Source: Asanoa ferruginea
GTDB taxonomy: Bacteria; Actinomycetota; Actinomycetes; Mycobacteriales; Micromonosporaceae
Direction: 5' to 3'
Length of the DNA stretch: 64,000 nt
Assembly (NCBI RefSeq): GCF_003387075.1
Contig: NZ_QUMQ01000001.1
Span: 4,464,001 to 4,528,000, forward strand
Shown here: one piece after another, positions 28,410 through 46,964 of the stretch
How positions within the stretch are numbered: position 1 is the first letter of the stretch
How the letters are laid out: the number at the start of each line of letters is the position of its first letter
Notes under the pieces: model-generated
What the model was told of the DNA's origin: nothing
The model's input: only the letters and a program-made list of their open reading frames with translations
Databases searched by the model: none
Made by a program: the position numbers and the translations under genes

Positions 28410-29008
28410 GCGAGCGGGTCTCCGTAGAGCAGGGCATTCACGGCGGCTGCGGCGACCGCGGCGCCGCCGCGGGCCGAGCGGTTGGACAGTTGCGGTAGCG
28501 TGGTCTGGCGCAGGGCCGCCTTGGACTCGGCCGCGCCGACATAGCCGACCGGAAGCCCGATTACCAACGCCGGGCGGACCTCGCCGGCCGCGGCCAGGCG
28601 GATCAACTCGGTCAGGGCGGTCGGCGCGTTGCCGATCACCCAGATGGCGCCGTCGGGGTGGGCTTTGGCGGCCCGCCGGATGCCGGCCGCCGACCGGGTC
28701 AGCCCTTCCCGGCTGGCCAGGTCGGCTGTCGCTGTCGCGGCGACCAGACACGTGGCGGGGTAGGCCGTCACTCCGGCGGCGACCATCGTCACGTCGGTGA
28801 CCAGCGGGTTATTGGCCGCCAGCGCTTTGACGCCGGCCGTGAGCGCCTCCTCGTCGGTGACCAGGTCGTCTTGCCAGGCCGGGTCGGCGGTGGTGTGGAT
28901 GACCCGCTCGACCACGTCGCGGGTGTGCGGCGGCAGCCCGGTGGTGTCGGCCTCGGCGCGCAGGATCCGGTAGGACTCGGCCTCGATCGGGTGCACGGTG
29001 CGCTTCAC
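28406..29008 (-). CDS. cobH: Precorrin-8X methylmutase
   Basis: A 200-residue enzyme moving the C11 methyl group to C12 to form hydrogenobyrinate. VHPIEAESYRILRAEAD, VVERVIHTTADP (with the catalytic His), VTDVTMVAAG and VIGLPVGYVGAAESK are diagnostic. GTG at 29008 makes a GTGA overlap with the upstream cbiG-cobJ stop and is preferred, although GTG at 29017 is also in frame. Confidence 0.92.
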   Translation of the reverse strand: MKRTVHPIEAESYRILRAEADTTGLPPHTRDVVERVIHTTADPAWQDDLVTDEEALTAGVKALAANNPLVTDVTMVAAGVTAYPATCLVAATATADLASREGLTRSAAGIRRAAKAHPDGAIWVIGNAPTALTELIRLAAAGEVRPALVIGLPVGYVGAAESKAALRQTTLPQLSNRSARGGAAVAAAAVNALLYGDPLA

Positions 29009-30885
29009 GACAGCCACGCGTACTCCCGCGGTGTGACCATTCGCCCGGCCACCAGCCGGGTCCGGCTGGAGCCGACCAGCACCACCGACCGCATGTCCAC
29101 GATGGACGGATTGGATGACAGCTCGGCGAGCGTGGTTCGGTGCACCCGCTGGCCGGGCCGGGATGCGTCGCGGACCACGCCGACCGGGGTGTCCGGCGGC
29201 CGGTGTTTGCTGAGGATCTCCAGCGACTCGGCGAACTGGGCAACGCGGGTCTTGCTGCGCGGGTTGTAGAGGCAGGCGACCAGGTCGGCGGCGGCCACCG
29301 CGCGGAGCCGCTCGACGATCACTGGCCAGGGCGTGTGCAGGTCCGACAGCGAGATGTAGGCGTGGTCGTGGCCGAGTGGCGCGCCCAGCAACGCGGCGGC
29401 GGCGAGGGCGGCGGTCACCCCGGGCACCGCGTCGACCTCGACGTCGGCGCCGGCCAGTTCGAGCGCTGGCGACGCCATCGCGTAGAGGCCGGCGTCCCCG
29501 GAGCCGATCAACGCGACGGCGTGCCCTTCGGTGGCCAGTTCGACGGCCTCCCGGGCGCGCTTGGACTCCTCGCCCAGCACGGACGCGACGATCCTGGCGC
29601 CGGGGGAGAGGAGGTGGCGCACCTGGTCCACGTATTGGTCCAGGCCGACGACCACCGACGCCCTCCGCAGCGCGGCGGTGGCCCGCGGGGTGCGCAGATC
29701 CTCGGCGCCCGGGCCGATGCCGATGATCGTGAGCCGGCCGCGCGGCGTCAACCGGGCGACGGCGGCGGTCGCGGTCGGGGTGACCTGTTTCGGCACCACC
29801 AGCTGCGCGCTCCTGCCGGCGTCGCGCGCGGCCCGGAGCGCGGCGGCCTCGGCCACGCTCGGCGTGCCGACCGCGGCGCGTACGACCTCGGACGGGGTCG
29901 GCACGTCTTCGGTGGCGAGCTCTTGGGCGGGGAAGGTGAGCAGTGGCCAGCCGCGCTCCGCGGCCAGCGCGAGGATGCCGGCCTCGTCGGCCTTGAGGTC
30001 CACGGTGGCCAATGCGCGCACGGACGCAGGGTCGAGCCCGCCGGCGGCCAGGGCCGCGTCCACGACGCCGGCGACGGCTTCGGCGGTGACGCCGCGACTC
30101 GCGCCGACCCCGACCACCAACGACGGCGGCCGGTAGACGAGATCACCGGTCGCATCGGCCCGATCAGAGACGACCAGCCGCACCGGACCAGCTTCGCTGG
30201 CCGTGACGGCTCCCCGGATGGGGTCCCTTTCGCCAGCCGGAGGCGGCGGAACGGGCGTGGTCGCGTGGGTCTGGTCGGTGACGGCCTCGCGGATGGGGCC
30301 TCTTTTGCCGGCCGGCAGCCGCGGAGCGGGCGTGGTCGCGTCGCTCCCGTCAGGAGCGATTGGCGCGGCGGCGCGGTCACCGCTGGGCAGTGGGGGAACC
30401 GGCCAGGTCGCATCGGCGATCACGATCGCGCCCGAGCCGTCGAGCAATGCCCTGGTCACCCGAGCGACCGGCGATGGGTCGGCCAGGCGGAAGCCCAGGT
30501 CGGCGCCGAAGGTGTCGAGTGGTGGCAGGCCCAAGCTGTCGGTGGCGGTGGTGATGACCGGCTCGGCACCGAGCAGCGCACCGATCCGGCAGGCCGCGTC
30601 GTTGGCCCCGCCGTCGTGTCCGCCGGTCAGCGCGACCGCGAACCGGCCCGCCTCGTCGACGCAGACGACGCCGGGGTCGGTGTGCTTGTCGGCAAGCAGC
30701 GGCGCGATCAGTCGGACCGTCGCCCCGGTGGCCAAGAAACACACCACGACGTTGCTGCCCGCCCAGGCTGCGGCGAGCTGTTCGCGCACCGAGCCGTCGT
30801 GGGTGCGCACCTCGTCGGACCACGCCTCGGCGAGCCGCGCGGCCAGCCGGCGCCCAGCCGCCGTCGGCGCCACTACGCCGATCAT
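29005..30885 (-). CDS. cobJ: CbiG-CobJ fusion: cobalt-precorrin-5A hydrolase and precorrin-3B C17-methyltransferase
   Basis: 626 residues. Residues 1 to ~350 are CbiG: N-domain GSNVVVCFLATGATVRLIAPLL and ALTGGHDGGAN, C-domain VVGVGASRGVTAEAV. Residues ~382-626 are CobJ: LTIIGIGPGAEDLRTP, VALIGSGDAGLYAMASP, DAVPGVTAALAAAALLGAPL. CbiG opens the ring-A/ring-D delta-lactone, and CobJ methylates C17 with ring contraction. A 75-bp in-frame duplication (residues ~180-231) sits in the CbiG inter-domain region. The ATG at 30885 is supported by the family's MIGVVxxTAAGRR start; a longer frame through the upstream repeats is judged spurious. Confidence 0.9.
   Translation of the reverse strand: MIGVVAPTAAGRRLAARLAEAWSDEVRTHDGSVREQLAAAWAGSNVVVCFLATGATVRLIAPLLADKHTDPGVVCVDEAGRFAVALTGGHDGGANDAACRIGALLGAEPVITTATDSLGLPPLDTFGADLGFRLADPSPVARVTRALLDGSGAIVIADATWPVPPLPSGDRAAAPIAPDGSDATTPAPRLPAGKRGPIREAVTDQTHATTPVPPPPAGERDPIRGAVTASEAGPVRLVVSDRADATGDLVYRPPSLVVGVGASRGVTAEAVAGVVDAALAAGGLDPASVRALATVDLKADEAGILALAAERGWPLLTFPAQELATEDVPTPSEVVRAAVGTPSVAEAAALRAARDAGRSAQLVVPKQVTPTATAAVARLTPRGRLTIIGIGPGAEDLRTPRATAALRRASVVVGLDQYVDQVRHLLSPGARIVASVLGEESKRAREAVELATEGHAVALIGSGDAGLYAMASPALELAGADVEVDAVPGVTAALAAAALLGAPLGHDHAYISLSDLHTPWPVIVERLRAVAAADLVACLYNPRSKTRVAQFAESLEILSKHRPPDTPVGVVRDASRPGQRVHRTTLAELSSNPSIVDMRSVVLVGSSRTRLVAGRMVTPREYAWLS
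30203..30352 (-). repeat. 75-bp in-frame duplication in cbiG
   Basis: Two 75-bp (25-codon) units start at 30203 and 30278 on the plus strand. On the minus strand they read ATTPxPxxPAGxRxPIRxAVT, repeated. Confidence 0.78.
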
Positions 30886-31205
30886 CGTGACCCCCACGCC
30901 GGCGTGACGGAGTTGGTCGCGGCCGGTCGGCGGTCGGCCGCCGTGGGTGCCAGTGCACCGATCATCGTGACCCCCACGTGGGCGTGACGGAGTTGGTCGC
31001 GGCCGGTCGGCGGTCGGCCGCCGTGGGTGCCAGTGCACCGATCATCGTGACCCCCACGTGGGCGTGACGGAGTTGGTCGCGGCCGGTCGGCGGTCGGCCG
31101 CCGTGGGTGCCAGTACGCCGATCATCGTGACCCCCACGTGGGCGTGACGGAGTTGGTCGCGGCCGGTCGGCGGTCGGCCGCCGTAGGTGCCACTGCGCCG
31201 ATCAT
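30886..31205 (-). repeat. Four tandem 80-bp copies of the cobL-cbiG junction
   Basis: ATG codons occur every 80 bp, at 31205, 31125, 31045, 30965 and finally 30885 (the cbiG start). Each unit holds the first codons of cbiG (MIGxxAPTAADRR), then the last codons of cobL (ATNSVTPTWGSR) with its TGA, which overlaps the next ATG. The hybrid point lies where both genes read Arg-x-Leu/Pro-Ala-Ala, i.e. at a short GC-rich microhomology. Units are about 95% identical, so expansion is recent. Confidence 0.93.
31122..31205 (-). CDS. Micro-ORF 1 of four ATGA-coupled 27-codon ORFs between cobL and cbiG
   Basis: ATG at 31205 overlaps the cobL stop as ATGA. The frame encodes 27 residues (MIGAVAPTAADRRPAAT, then NSVTPTWGSR) and ends in TGA overlapping the next ATG. 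The same arrangement recurs for 31042-31125, 30962-31045 and 30882-30965. The last micro-ORF's TGA overlaps the cbiG ATG. GGGGG five bases before each ATG could serve as a weak ribosome binding site. Translation is inferred from the layout only, and the peptide itself is probably functionless. Confidence 0.4.
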   Translation of the reverse strand: MIGAVAPTAADRRPAATNSVTPTWGSR

Positions 31206-32356
31206 CGGGACCCCCATACCAGCGTGACCGGGTTGGTCGCGGCCAGGCGGTGCCGGCCGGCGATTTCCGCCAAGCGGTTTGCCTGCACCTGCACGCCGCC
31301 AGTCGCGTAGCCCGCCGCGGCAAGCGCGTCGGCGGCTGGTCCGACCGGTTCCAGCGCCGCGAACGCGGCCACCACATTGGTCGGGCGGCGGGCGAGCACT
31401 GCGGCGAGCACGTCGGGGCCGCCGCCGCCGACGAAGACCGCGTCGGGGTCGGGCAGGTCGGCGAGTGCGGCCGGTGCCGCCCCCGCCTCCACCCGCACCT
31501 CGACGCCGTGCCGGGCGGCGTTGGCGCGGGCCAGGTCGGCCGCGGCCGGGTCGCGGTCGACGGCGACGGCCGCGGCGCCGAACCGGGCGCACTCGACCGC
31601 GACCGAGCCGGAGCCGGTGCCGACGTCCCAGACCAGCGTGCCTGGTGCCGGGCGCAGGCGGGGCAGGGCGACCGCCCGCACCTCGGCCTTTGTGATCATC
31701 GAGTTGCGGTGGTGGAACGCGTCCTCGGGCAGCGCCCAGCCGTCCGGCACCCGGACCCCGCCGGCCAGCCAGCCCGCCGGGCCGCTGGAAAGGTCGCCGG
31801 CCAGTGAGATCACCACGTTGGGCTCGGCCCAGTCGCCGTCGGGGCCGGTCAGCCGCTCCTCGGGTGTGCCGAGGCGGGACGCGACGATCACCCGCCGGGA
31901 CCAGCCCTCCAAGGCCGCCGCCAGCGCGGGCGGCTCCGCGCCCGGGCCGGTCAGCACGGCGACCTTCGGGTAGGCGCGACAGATGTTGGCCGCTCGCCGC
32001 AGGCCGCCGTCGCGCCCGTGTGCGGACACCACGACCGCGTCGTCCCAGGGCAGGCCGAGACGCGCGAACGCCTGGGCGACCGATGACACCGCCGGTTGGA
32101 CGATCGGGTCGACGCCGGCCCGGCGCAGCGCGCGGACGATGCCGAAGAAGCCCGGGTCGCCGCTGGCCAGCACCGCGACCGGTCCATTGTGGCCAGTGAC
32201 TCGGGCCAGGGCGGCACCGACGTCGCCCATGACGACGCGTTCGGCGGATGACTCGACGGCCGAGAGGTGTCGAGCGCCGCCGACCAGCAGCGTCGCCGAC
32301 GACACCGCCGATGGCAGGGGGCTGCCGTCGTAGCCGAAGACCGTTACCTCAGCCAC
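31202..32356 (-). CDS. cobL: Precorrin-6Y C5,15-methyltransferase (decarboxylating), CbiE-CbiT fusion
   Basis: 384 residues. The N-terminal half is CbiE (VTVFGYDGSPLP, VAVLASGDPGFFGIVR, LTGPGAEPPALAAAL), methylating C5. The C-terminal half is CbiT (HHRNSMITKAEVRA, LVWDVGTGSGSVAVECAR, DPDAVFVGGGGPD), methylating C15 with decarboxylation. GTG at 32356 overlaps the cobM stop by 8 bp. Its stop once coupled directly to cbiG, and that junction has now been multiplied (see the 80-bp array). Confidence 0.92.
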   Translation of the reverse strand: MAEVTVFGYDGSPLPSAVSSATLLVGGARHLSAVESSAERVVMGDVGAALARVTGHNGPVAVLASGDPGFFGIVRALRRAGVDPIVQPAVSSVAQAFARLGLPWDDAVVVSAHGRDGGLRRAANICRAYPKVAVLTGPGAEPPALAAALEGWSRRVIVASRLGTPEERLTGPDGDWAEPNVVISLAGDLSSGPAGWLAGGVRVPDGWALPEDAFHHRNSMITKAEVRAVALPRLRPAPGTLVWDVGTGSGSVAVECARFGAAAVAVDRDPAAADLARANAARHGVEVRVEAGAAPAALADLPDPDAVFVGGGGPDVLAAVLARRPTNVVAAFAALEPVGPAADALAAAGYATGGVQVQANRLAEIAGRHRLAATNPVTLVWGSR

Positions 32357-35796: not shown

Positions 35797-37860
35797 TCAC
35801 ACCGCCTTCAGCGCGCGGGCGGACAGCGCCGCCAGCGGCAGGTATTCGGCGTCCAGCGCGCCGGCCAGCGTGCGTGCCATCCCGAGCCGGACCGGGCCGC
35901 TCTCGCAGTCGACCACGACGCTCGGCACACCGGCCAGCGCCGGCGCGACCGTGCGCGGATCGGGGCCGCGGGTGAACCGGCCGTCGGTGACGACGACCAG
36001 CAGCGGCCGGCGCAGCGGGTCACGGCGGCGCTCGCCGGCCAGCGTGCGCGCGGCGGCGGTCAGCCCGGCGGCGAGCGGGGTACGCCCGCCGGTGCGCAGA
36101 TCGGCCAGCCGGCGCACGCCGACCTCGTGGCTGGCGGTGGGCCGCAGTACGGTCGTCGCGTCGCGGTCCCGGAACGTGATCATGCCAACCGTGTCACGGC
36201 GCTGGTAGGCGTCGCGGAGCAACGACAGCACCGCCCGCTTGACGGTCGCCATCCGCTGCCGGGCCGCCATCGAACCCGACGCGTCGACCACGAACAGCAC
36301 CAGGTTGGCCTCACGTCCGATGTGGACGGCCTCGCGGAGGTGCTGCTGCCGGATCACGATCCGGCGGCCGCGGCGGTCGCGGACGCGGGCCGGCGCGGTG
36401 TCCGGCAGGTGCACGGCCCCGATCCGCTCGACGAGGTGGTCGCGGGCGGCGGCTAGCACGGTGTCCGGCAGGTGCAGGGCGCCGATCCGGCCGCGCGGCG
36501 CCCGTGAACCGGCGACCCGGCCCCGGGCCGCGTAGGCGGGTGAGCGTCGTCCACTGTGGCCATACCGGCCCCGGGATCGGGCGGTCAGCGTGCGGGTCCT
36601 GTAGGTGGCACCGATTGGGGCGGGCGTGGCCGGCGGCGCAGTGGCAGGGGCGCCGCCCGGCCGGTCCTCGGCGTCGGGCGCGGCGGCGCCGCCACTGCCC
36701 GGTCCGCCGGCGTCAGGCCGCGGGTCATCCGGTCCAGGACCGCCTTCGCTTGGTCCACGGTCGTCCGGCTGCGGGCCGTCCGGCCGTGCGCCGCCGTCGT
36801 TCGGGCCTGGATCGTCCGGCTCGGGTCCGGGACCGTCGGGCGCTTCAGACTCGCCGGCCTGGGCCAGCGCGTCGTCGAGGGCCTGCTGGTCGGCGCCCGG
36901 CGGGTCGAACGGGTCGCGCCGGCGCCGGTGCGGCAGGGCCAGCCGGGCCGCGTCGTCGACCTCTCGGTCGGTGACGACCGACCGGTCGCGCCAGGCGGCC
37001 AGCGCCACGGCCGTGCGGGCGATGACGATGTCGGCCCGCAGCCCGTCGACCCCGTAGGCCAGGCAGATCCGGGCGATCCGGTCCAGCGCTGGGTCGGGCA
37101 GCGTGACCTTGGGCAGCCGGGCCCGGGCCGCGACGATCCGTTCGGCGGTGTCGGCGTCGGCCTCGGCGAAGCGGGCCGCGAAACCTTCGGGATCGGCCTC
37201 GTAGGCCAGCCGGCGACGGACCACCTCGGCCCGGTCGCCGGGCTCGGTGGGTGCGCCGACCTCGACGACCAGCCCGAACCGGTCGACGAGTTGCGGTCGC
37301 GGCTCGCCCTCCTCCGGATTCATCGTGCCCACGAGCAGGAAGCGGGCGGCGTGTCGGAGCGAGACGCCGTCGCGCTCGACGAACGCGCGGCCCATCGCGG
37401 CCGAGTCGAGCAGCAGGTCGACCAGGTGGTCGGGGAGCAGGTTGACCTCGTCGACGTAGAGCGCGCCGCGGTGCGCGGCGGCCAGCAGGCCCGGCTCGTA
37501 GGCCTTGGTGCCCTCGGTCAGGAACCGCTGCACGTCGAGTGTGCCGACGACCCGGTCCTCGGTGGCGCCGACCGGCAACTCGACCAGCCGGGAACGGCGC
37601 ACCAGCGGATCACCGGCCGGGTGCGGGCCGTCGGGACAACCAGGGTCCGGTGCGGCAGGGTCGCAGGCGAACCGGCAGCCGGCGACCACTGCGATGTCGG
37701 GCAGCAGTGCGGCGAGGGCGCGTACCATCGTCGATTTGGCAGTGCCCTTCTCGCCGCGCACCAGCACGCCGCCGATCACCGGTGCGACGGCGTTGAGCAG
37801 CAGGGCCTGGCGCAGGTCGGCCAGGCCGACGACGGCGGAGAACGGGTAGGCGGTGCTCAT
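35797..37860 (-). CDS. Mg/Co-chelatase ATPase and VWA subunit, fused ChlI-ChlD type
   Basis: 687 residues. The AAA+ domain has Walker A GEKGTAKS (36-43), LYVDEVNLLPDHLVDLLLD and a sensor region GTMNPEEGEPRPQLVDRFGLVV. A long Pro/Gly/Asp-rich linker precedes a von Willebrand A domain with MIDAS motif VVDASGSM (near 525). It powers metal insertion together with CobN and stands in for CobS/CobT in actinobacteria. The linker end carries a 63-bp in-frame duplication (RIGALHLPDT, RIGAVHLPDT). It is the first gene after a cobalamin riboswitch. Confidence 0.9.
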   Translation of the reverse strand: MSTAYPFSAVVGLADLRQALLLNAVAPVIGGVLVRGEKGTAKSTMVRALAALLPDIAVVAGCRFACDPAAPDPGCPDGPHPAGDPLVRRSRLVELPVGATEDRVVGTLDVQRFLTEGTKAYEPGLLAAAHRGALYVDEVNLLPDHLVDLLLDSAAMGRAFVERDGVSLRHAARFLLVGTMNPEEGEPRPQLVDRFGLVVEVGAPTEPGDRAEVVRRRLAYEADPEGFAARFAEADADTAERIVAARARLPKVTLPDPALDRIARICLAYGVDGLRADIVIARTAVALAAWRDRSVVTDREVDDAARLALPHRRRRDPFDPPGADQQALDDALAQAGESEAPDGPGPEPDDPGPNDGGARPDGPQPDDRGPSEGGPGPDDPRPDAGGPGSGGAAAPDAEDRPGGAPATAPPATPAPIGATYRTRTLTARSRGRYGHSGRRSPAYAARGRVAGSRAPRGRIGALHLPDTVLAAARDHLVERIGAVHLPDTAPARVRDRRGRRIVIRQQHLREAVHIGREANLVLFVVDASGSMAARQRMATVKRAVLSLLRDAYQRRDTVGMITFRDRDATTVLRPTASHEVGVRRLADLRTGGRTPLAAGLTAAARTLAGERRRDPLRRPLLVVVTDGRFTRGPDPRTVAPALAGVPSVVVDCESGPVRLGMARTLAGALDAEYLPLAALSARALKAV
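36398..36523 (-). repeat. 63-bp in-frame duplication in the chelatase gene
   Basis: Two 63-bp (21-codon) units start at 36398 and 36461 on the plus strand. On the minus strand each gives RIGAxHLPDT plus an Arg/Ala-rich stretch, at the junction of the linker and the VWA domain, where homologues have one copy. Confidence 0.78.
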
Positions 37861-37929
37861 CCGGTGTGCCGGCACGACAACATGGCGCTCAGTCCCTTCC
37901 GCGGGTGTCCACGCCCGCGATGGTTCGAC

Positions 37930-38079
37930 GGCGAGCAGCCGAGTGTCCTGGCTCCCGGATCGACGCTCCCCTCGGCCTTCCAACCCTCTCGGGCCGTGAC
38001 CATCAGGTGAGGGATCGCTCCCCGGTGACAGTGGCGGGACCGCCCCGGAATCGCACCGGGTTCCTCCGCACCGCTCGCC
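37930..38079 (-). promoter_or_regulatory. Cobalamin riboswitch upstream of the main cob operon
   Basis: Read on the minus strand: GGAACCCGGTGCGATTCCGG, GCGGTCCCGCCACTGTCACC and GAGCCAGGACACTC, the conserved cobalamin aptamer elements. The outer stem pairs GGCGAGC with GCTCGCC, giving about 150 nt. It precedes the chelatase-cobO-cobB-cobI-cobM-cobL-cbiG/cobJ-cobH-cbiX operon. A TTGACG hexamer at 38108-38113 may be its -35 element. Confidence 0.93.
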
Positions 38080-38183
38080 CAACATGCTGACCCACGCAGC
38101 AGGCCCGCGTCAAAGGGAGGGGAATCACGCCCCCGCTCCGCCCCCCCCGCGACGCCTGGTCCTTCGGACGGCGAGATCAACAC

Positions 38184-45300: not shown

Positions 45301-45546
45301 CGGCGGTGGCCGGGCCGGGCCGCTTGCCCGGCCGGGCGATGCGCTGAGCCGTTGGCGCTTCTGCGGCCCGTGGCGGTGGTGAGAGCGGCCAGTGGGCCGC
45401 CGGCGGTGGTCGGGCTGGGCCGCTTGCCCGGCCGGGCGATGCGCTGAGCCGTTGGCGCTTCAGCGGCCCGTGGCGGTGGTGAGAGCGGCCAGTGGGCCGC
45501 CGGCGGTGGTCGGAGCTTGCCGCTGCCGGGCCTTGCGGTGGCCGCT
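45301..45546 (-). repeat. 100-bp repeats copying the 3' end of the decayed monooxygenase gene
   Basis: Units starting near 45301 and 45401 are nearly identical over 100 bp. A third, diverged copy continues to the pseudogene's own stop. On the minus strand each unit re-encodes the terminal PLAALTTATGR with its following TGA (one copy reads CAGA instead) plus ~60 bp of flank ending CGGCCGGGCAAGCGG. No gene is present in this stretch. Confidence 0.82.
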
Positions 45547-46445
45547 TCAGCGGGCGGTGGCCGTGGTGAGGGCGGCCAGGACGCTGTCGGCGGTGGCCGG
45601 GCCCGGGGTGCCGCCAGGCGACGTGGCCGTCCGCGCGGACCAGGACGGCGCCGGCCGGGGTGGTGCCGTAGGCGGTGGGCCAGTCGGGATCGGTCATGAC
45701 GTGGGTCTTCAGCGGAACGCCGAGCCCGGGTGCCGCCGGTTCGGCCGCTCGTCGCCAGTCGGCGCCGGTTGGGGTGGTCAACAGGGCGTGCTCGGTGCCG
45801 AAGAGGTCGAGCGTGGAGCGCCCGTCCGCGAGCCACAGCTGCGGAGCGCGACACCCGGGCGCCGTGACCGGCTTGTAGTCGGCGCCGGGCGGGTCCGCGG
45901 CGGCGGCGCCGTCGGGCGTGATCACGGCGGATCGGTATTGGTAGCCCACGTCGATCTGGGCCAGGCTGCGCCCGGCGAACGGCGCTCCGCTGCCGCTGAA
46001 GATCCGGGTCCAGGCCTCGCCGGTCTCGTCGGCGTTGCGGGTGCCGACCGGCTCGCGCTCGGCGCGCTAGCTGTCGAGCAGTCGTGGCCCGCCCTGGCCG
46101 TGGAAGACGGCCGCCAGCTTCCAGGCCAGGTCGTGCGCGTCGTGGATGGCGGCGCTCAGGCCGGTCGCACCGGCCGGCGGGAAGCGGTGCGCGGCGTCGC
46201 CGACCAGGAAGACGGGCCCGTCGGCGTAGCGCTCGGCGGTCAGCGCCTCGGCGGTCCACCGGCTGCTGGCCAGCACCTCGACGGGCACGCCGAGCAGCGC
46301 GGCGACGTCCAGCGGCTCGGTGCCGCTGTCGGTTTCAGGCAGGCTGATCATCCAGCGCTAGTCGGGTTGGCTCCAGACCAACGCGGCGCCCGCCTCGGCC
46401 AGGAAGCAGATCCCGCGCGGCCGCGGGGCGGTCCAGGGTCCGTCA
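45547..46445 (-). pseudogene. Decayed FAD-dependent aromatic monooxygenase (C-terminal half)
   Basis: The surviving part matches class A flavin hydroxylases: RGICFLAEAGAALVWSQPD, RWMISLPE, then the GD motif FLVGDAAHRFPPAGATGLSAAIHDAHDLAWKLAAV, and a thioredoxin-like end (LLTTPTGADWRRAAE, VLVRADGHVAWR). The N-terminal FAD-binding half is missing and replaced by a repeat array. Two in-frame TAG codons (46358-46360 and 46067-46069) both stand where homologues have Tyr, and a one-base frameshift near 45610 separates the last 18 residues from the stop. I judge it non-functional. Confidence 0.85.
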
Positions 46446-46964
46446 GGCCCGTGGGATGTCCGAGGCTCGGCCGCGGAGCGGATTTGACGGGTGGCCCCCG
46501 GCCCGGCCCGCGCTTTCCGCGGACGGGGTCCGTCAGGTCCGTGGGATGTCCGGGGCTCGGCCGCGGAGCGGATTTGACGGGTGCCCCCGGCCCGCGCTTT
46601 CTACGGACGGGGTCCGTCAGGGTCCGTGGGGCGTCCGGGGCTCGGCCGCGGAGCGGATTTGACGGGTGGCCCCCGGCCCGGCCCGCGCTTTCCGCGGACG
46701 GGGTCCGTCAGGTCCGTGGGGTGTCCGGGGCTCGGCCGCGGAGCGGATTTGACGGGTGCCCCCGGCCCGCGCTTCCTGCGGACGGGGTCCGTCAGGGTCC
46801 GTGGGGTATCCGGGGCTCGGCCGCGGAGCGGATTTGACGGGTGGCCCCCGGCCCGGCCCGCGCTTCCCGCGGACGGGGTCCGTCAGGGTCCGTGGGGCAT
46901 CCGGGGCTCGGCCCCGGAGCAGATATGACGGGTGCCCCCGGCCCGCGCTCTCCGCGGACAGGGG
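46436..46964. repeat. Six-unit tandem array of alternating 90/84-bp repeats
   Basis: CGTCAGG recurs at 46441, 46531, 46615, 46706, 46790 and 46881, spacings 90, 84, 91, 84 and 91. Long units contain GGTGGCCCCCGGCCCGGCCCGC and short ones GGTGCCCCCGGCCCGC, so the true period is a ~175-bp dimer repeated three times. Shared core: CGGCCGCGGAGCGGATTTGA. Plus-strand frames through it are open only because the repeat lacks stops in some phases; I see no gene. It ends 14 bp from the 3' end of tRNA-Val. Confidence 0.92.

Follow-up and report, generated by a model that had tools for sequence, protein, structure and literature searches.

A tandem array of ATGA-coupled micro-ORFs, duplicated from the cobL-cbiG junction of Asanoa ferruginea, as a candidate coupling-preserving relay

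The array between cobL and cbiG-cobJ

We analysed a window of 64,000 nucleotides from Asanoa ferruginea (positions 4464001-4528000 of a genome in one 9.07-Mb contig), whose minus strand carries, in order, cobL, four tandem 80-bp units and a cbiG-cobJ fusion gene (Table 1). ATG codons stand on this strand at 31205, 31125, 31045, 30965 and 30885, a spacing of 80 bp; the first overlaps the cobL stop codon, the last is the cbiG-cobJ start, and between them run four open reading frames (ORFs) of 27 codons plus TGA, each TGA overlapping the ATG that follows. Tandem Repeats Finder (TRF) places the array at 30838-31244 with a period of 80, 5.1 copies and 92% matches. An earlier note made from the sequence had described such a ladder of four micro-ORFs produced by duplication of the gene junction, with the ATGA overlap inside the duplicated segment, and the ORF coordinates and the TRF result agree with that description. 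Five copies at 92% matches are not the work of chance, and the ladder that they form is mechanical.

A Shine-Dalgarno-like GGGGG run recurs every 80 bp, ahead of all five ATGs. A perfect 10-bp palindrome, CCCACGTGGG, overlaps this run in units 1 to 3 and is found neither in unit 4 nor in the cobL parent. The opposite strand (+, 30904-31227) holds a GTGA stop-start chain at 30904, 30984, 31064, 31144 and 31224, which we take as chance. Upstream, the cbiG frame stays open as far as a GTG at 31038, which would add 51 residues, namely units 3 and 4 read in other frames; this N-terminal extension was rejected, as the GTG lies inside unit 3 and the proteins of relatives align from the ATG.

Table 1. 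Features of the array and its gene run (positions in the window)
Feature	Position	Strand	Basis or remark
Cobalamin riboswitch 5′ of the gene run	37920..38090	-	Rfam RF00174, 80.2 bits (gathering 31.5)
cobL, CbiE and CbiT domains, upstream gene	31202..32356	-	NCBIfam TIGR02467 and TIGR02469 above cut-off; TGA overlaps ATG 31205
CTGGCCGCG, upstream microhomology copy, cobL C-terminus	31238..31246	-	Exact-repeat search and sequence reading
GGGGG, Shine-Dalgarno-like, before ATG 31205	31211..31215	-	Read in the sequence; putative function
Micro-ORF 1, MIGAVAPTAADRRPAATNSVTPTWGSR, 27 codons plus TGA	31122..31205	-	ORF reading
Micro-ORF 2, MIGVLAPTAADRRPAATNSVTPTWGSR	31042..31125	-	ORF reading
Micro-ORF 3, MIGALAPTAADRRPAATNSVTPTWGSR	30962..31045	-	ORF reading
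Micro-ORF 4, MIGALAPTAADRRPAATNSVTPAWGSR	30882..30965	-	ORF reading; TGA overlaps the cbiG ATG
CTGGCCGCG, downstream microhomology copy, cbiG N-terminus	30838..30846	-	Exact-repeat search and sequence reading
cbiG-cobJ fusion gene, 626 aa, downstream gene	29005..30885	-	TIGR01466 above cut-off; Pfam PF11760, PF01890, PF00590

Gene names were assigned with NCBIfam and Pfam models. The CbiG-CobJ protein comprises CbiG_N, CbiG_C and TP_methylase domains, and its only other match in its own genome is at 33% to the cobM gene. 5′ of cobL the run contains cobM, cobI, cobB and cobO, all above their NCBIfam cut-offs, as well as a cobaltochelatase-like gene whose best NCBIfam model scores below its cut-off; the run is presumably one operon read as one transcript. 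Further tandem duplications lie in the window. One of 75 bp, in frame (1.9 copies, 82%; 30203-30341, -), lies within cbiG-cobJ and separates the N-terminal part of CbiG from its C-terminal part, near the point at which congener protein matches split. Another of 63 bp (1.9 copies, 77%; 36396-36514, -) lies in the cobaltochelatase-like gene and is thus a third in the same gene run, and two arrays are found elsewhere, at 45301-45532 (100 bp x 2.3) and 46436-46964 (175 bp x 3.0, alternatively 85-90 bp x ~6).

Origin and distribution of the unit

Each unit joins a copy of the cbiG start to a copy of the cobL end, as the earlier note had proposed: its halves match the start of their own cbiG at 36-38 of 46 sites and the end of their own cobL at 26-28 of 34. 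Between units there are 2-5 differences in 80 sites, against 16-18 of 80 when each is compared with a virtual unit assembled from the two present-day parents; the fusion itself is hence old, and the multiplication to four copies is either recent or masked by homogenisation.

The microhomology that the note had seen at the fusion point is real. When exact repeats spanning the ATGA were sought on the junction with the array removed, the longest was the 9-bp CTGGCCGCG at offset 80, the length of the unit. It codes for Leu-Ala-Ala in each gene's own frame, and its counterpart in A. siamensis for Arg-Leu-Ala. As the genes overlap at -4, codons for the same residues that are each in frame in their own gene lie at a spacing of 2 mod 3, which fixes the length class of the unit. 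With such a length and an ATGA inside, an ORF runs from the downstream gene's start into the upstream gene's frame and on to the next ATGA, barring an earlier stop. The ladder therefore follows from the place of the junction and the homology, as derived from the frames.

Five congener Asanoa genomes were compared. The earlier note had suggested that unit number could change, and between species it does: four in A. ferruginea, one in A. siamensis and none in A. ishikariensis, A. hainanensis and the congener G005, which have a single ATGA junction. The A. siamensis unit, found in a separate draft assembly, is intact, exactly 80 bp long (MIGAVAPTAAGRRLAATNPVRLLWGSR) and at the same junction, where the longest spanning repeat is the 11-bp CGCCTGGCCGC, again at offset 80. 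At that offset the longest runs in the three species without a unit measure 4-5 bp. A -4 overlap (ATGA, once GTGA) marks the cobL-cbiG border in all five Asanoa species with an assembled junction and in three Planosporangium species.

In the fifth congener, A. iriomotensis (draft G002; loci L143 and L144), the assembly is interrupted within the cobL end, where contig C31 stops and contig C96 starts; the two meet in frame, leaving neither gap nor overlap, and across them the longest run at offset 80 is 5 bp. With about 190 contigs over 8.6 Mb, a contig end falls within 40 bp of any chosen point with a probability of ~0.0018, which hints that an array may be hidden there. Counting against this, the abutted sequence is also a normal cobL end, and a search of the draft with the fused unit gave only pieces at the C96 end (E-values of 2.8e-18 and 3.8e-10, the next being 0.004; 40 of 210 candidates scored).

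The tandem-junction pattern occurred in two of 354 Micromonosporaceae genomes, both Asanoa. Of 46 loci, 15 have the core of the pattern close to the start of cbiG (4/4 Asanoa, 3/3 Planosporangium, 0/2 Micromonospora, 0/5 Catellatospora), so that this search is blind to much of the family. A search with the 27-residue peptide gave full-length matches of low E-value in just the same two Asanoa genomes among the matches listed, along with many weak chance matches. Repeats of other kinds lie close to cbiG elsewhere. In Actinomadura alba a 27-bp stretch immediately before cbiG is duplicated in tandem (L026 2934-2987); in contrast to the Asanoa unit (2 mod 3) its length is 0 mod 3, and its frame continues into cbiG. 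Actinoallomurus soli has a 30-bp repeat of 4.2 copies just before the matched cbiG start (L027 2864-2990).

A tree of five cob genes places A. siamensis with A. iriomotensis and A. ferruginea apart, with weakly supported deep nodes; in the unit tree the A. siamensis unit groups with its own parents and the four units of A. ferruginea with theirs. A tree constrained to a shared origin is 5.0 log-likelihood units worse (approximately unbiased test, p 0.21) and is thus neither accepted nor rejected. Two sites argue for a shared origin, namely Ala codon 4, found in units 1, 3 and 4 and in the A. siamensis unit, and a change from CCG to NCC; gene conversion in A. siamensis could mimic independence. 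The unit tree favours two origins.

Chance, selection and ladders elsewhere

How easily a tandem repeat yields such a ladder was estimated by tiling 2000 dinucleotide-shuffled 80-nt units in tandem. An ATGA ladder appeared on the given strand in 13% of them, some NTGA ladder on the given strand in 45%, and an NTGA ladder on one or other strand in 79%. As for constraint on the unit itself, the 19-nt overlap block (TGGGGGTCNCG plus ATGATCGG) contains a single change, compared with 15-17 outside it (hypergeometric P 0.03-0.06 for each unit, the units not being independent), and the same block in A. siamensis has none of six changes (P 0.18). Unit 1 differs from its parent by two, five and nine changes at codon positions 1, 2 and 3; this skew may stem from constraint acting on the parent genes and does not prove that a peptide is selected.

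For comparison we took 1.104 Mb from the genome of A. ferruginea (53 stretches, the window included; ~12%) and 0.82 Mb from that of G005 (41 stretches). TRF arrays with a period of at least 30 and a score of at least 150 numbered 48 and 31, respectively, or 43.5 and 37.8 per Mb; tandem arrays are thus common in both samples, a background prone to duplication. Chains of NTGA steps whose units are at least 70% alike numbered 15 in the first sample (both strands of the cob array included) and five in the second. For four other chains, two per genome, the downstream ORF was compared with Pfam, and none of the four had a family at E ≤ 0.001; in the L198 chain, ORFs in other frames looked more gene-like by eye. 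The remaining chains were judged by open-frame length alone (e.g., L184, with 128 codons upstream and 162 downstream). Within these samples, a genome-wide ladder system was rejected. Several multi-copy arrays of A. ferruginea carry such chance-like NTGA ladders: L147 9835-10138 (74 bp), L148 185-589 (71 bp), L198 9302-9564 (59 bp) and L167 19307-19773 (41 bp). Across loci L019-L096 (582,490 bases) nine chains were found, and of these only the A. siamensis chain lies where two identified genes meet; a 20-bp chain in L056 (254 codons upstream, 118 downstream) is taken as chance.

A coupling-preserving relay and its alternatives

We favour the reading, which we consider somewhat better than evenly probable, that the array is a recurrent, locally born duplication, tolerated since each unit brings its own coupling site and keeps the frame. 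Slippage or unequal exchange between short direct repeats at the cobL end and the cbiG start would duplicate an 80-bp segment containing the ATGA, and subsequent exchange among the 80-bp copies would raise the number to four. A ribosome finishing cobL would then be passed through the four micro-ORFs to cbiG-cobJ. Such an insert would open no long untranslated gap and never shift the cbiG frame, so that gaining or losing a unit would probably be nearly neutral and alter output modestly at most. Since the frame is retained whatever the number of units, the array cannot serve as an on-off switch by frame.

Precedent for this arrangement comes from the mycobacterial interspersed repetitive units (MIRUs). 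A review describes MIRUs as short units at gene starts that contain coupled ORFs at -4 spacing, and suggests that, owing to the coupled ORF, a MIRU can probably insert with minimal effect on the downstream gene (PMC12548453). According to a second report, MIRUs stand in tandem between senX3 and regX3, as three 77-bp units in H37Rv and as two of 77 bp and one of 53 bp in CDC1551 (PMC4213456). The Asanoa units likewise lie in tandem between co-directed genes; 77, 53 and 80 bp are all 2 mod 3, as a ladder requires; and the -4 micro-ORF layout is present in the five ATGA overlaps and four 27-codon ORFs, the likeness being one of layout only. The Asanoa unit differs in being confined to a single locus and made from its two flanking genes, rather than interspersed or mobile. 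The architecture is therefore precedented by MIRUs, whereas membership fails on dispersal and origin. It is by analogy with MIRU insertion that we take the array for a relay that preserves coupling. The earlier note's statement that no such case had been described does not hold for the architecture. Our literature search, covering titles and the beginnings of abstracts, gave no copy-number test of tandem coupled ORFs among the matches listed.

Other known systems offer looser parallels. Stop and start codons overlap throughout the array, as in translationally coupled gene pairs, and the junctions resemble those described by Huber et al. 2019 for termination-reinitiation at ATGA (PMC6728339) in combining the overlap with a Shine-Dalgarno-like run; compared with the single ATGA junction treated there, Asanoa has five in series, four of them from duplication. 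Leader ORFs, which may deliver a ribosome by re-initiation according to Korolev et al. (PMC4833913), are similarly short and placed just before a structural gene, whereas the Asanoa micro-ORFs are internal to a gene run, tandem and derived from their neighbours. On distance, the review relates that in early studies coupling peaked at spacings of -4 to +3 nt and was weaker by ~3- to 10-fold near +40 nt (PMC12548453).

Several observations weigh against the relay and its tolerance. The same review cites studies in which coupling was undiminished as far as +25 nt, or still occurred at +50 to +350 nt, so that an untranslated insert need not have broken coupling (PMC12548453). The ladder survived 16 random substitutions in 34% (ATGA) to 40% (NTGA) of simulated units, and its persistence hence needs no selection. 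The start-block test is weak, and these substitution counts indicate selection on the unit at most weakly. The absence of units in three species could mean that loss is favoured. With respect to origin, spanning repeats of 12 bp at offset 103 (A. ishikariensis) and of 11 bp at offset 162 (A. hainanensis) stand in junctions that show no duplication, and homology length alone is thus no predictor of duplication; neither offset is 2 mod 3, and two cases prove nothing.

The micro-ORFs might instead be bystanders, with ribosomes starting cbiG-cobJ anew at the gene's own GGGGG-ATG (30885) instead of being relayed. Every ATG, including this one, has its Shine-Dalgarno-like run, and of the five E. coli pairs that Huber et al. 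tested, three are strongly coupled, menDH at ~60% and bioBF not at all (PMC6728339). RNA folds at ten junction stretches were no stabler than those of shuffles (z from -0.46 to 1.32; among the five stretches from the window, two have the same sequence), nor was a fold of 423 nt (z -1.19), which indicates no masked start site. However, conservation of the -4 overlap across the five Asanoa and three Planosporangium species points to coupling, and we hold independent initiation to be unlikely.

The earlier note had gone further and proposed a tunable step. In the form weighed here, re-initiation would be imperfect at each step, cbiG-cobJ output per transcript would fall with the number of units, and that number would have been selected to tune the ratio of CobL to CbiG-CobJ. 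Unit number does vary between species (4, 1, 0, 0, 0, with A. iriomotensis broken between contigs), and Huber et al. state that equal output would need a hand-over of 100%, the efficiency remaining to be quantified (PMC6728339). Yet there is no sign of selection beyond the weak start-block signal; some fresh initiation at each GGGGG-ATG would, by arithmetic, bring output to a plateau rather than a limitless fall; a cobalamin riboswitch lies upstream; and Korolev et al. offer the hypothesis that leader ORFs enhance translation of the downstream gene (PMC4833913). The tunable step is not supported so far, and we regard it as rather unlikely, although unit number may have a modest tuning effect; tolerance of the array is more likely than a control dial. 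A broader version, in which the junction is a recurrent Asanoa duplication hotspot where unit number sets the CobL:CbiG-CobJ ratio by serial re-initiation, and in which homologous codons in register on both sides of a -4 overlap give bacteria a general way to create frame-safe, tunable micro-ORF relays, seems to us distinctly improbable.

Three further explanations fare worse. That the array acts on transcription, for example as an internal promoter for cbiG-cobJ, would echo the promoter activity driving regX3 that one report ascribes to the MIRU-bearing senX3-regX3 intergenic region (PMC4213456); we consider it very unlikely, as the units are built of coding sequence from both neighbours and the stretch 30500-31600 has no terminator-like site and no promoter match in a scan for sigma-70-type promoters, to which the latter result applies. 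An assembly or sequencing artefact is equally hard to credit: repeats commonly cause errors in copy number, but this genome is in one contig, the units differ by ordered single-nucleotide differences, and the separate A. siamensis draft has an 80-bp unit at the same place. Least credible of all is a mobile MIRU-like element that inserted at the ATGA and then multiplied, which shares the size class and -4 micro-ORF layout of a MIRU and was rejected because a 407-bp array query matched the 9.07-Mb genome just once at E ≤ 0.001 (40 of 197 first-look candidates scored) and, decisively, because both halves of the unit are copies of flanking genes.

The novelty lies in a frame-safe array of local origin, present in two species of the same genus, and in the microhomology that explains it. 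It provides an origin for MIRU-like arrays of coupled micro-ORFs that involves no mobile element. Where adjacent genes overlap at an ATGA and share matching codons, at the end of the first and the start of the second, duplication yields a unit whose length is 2 mod 3, and overlap and frame are both preserved. The serial ATGA steps, set in a natural gene run, also offer material for determining the efficiency of re-initiation per step, which according to Huber et al. is still to be quantified (PMC6728339).
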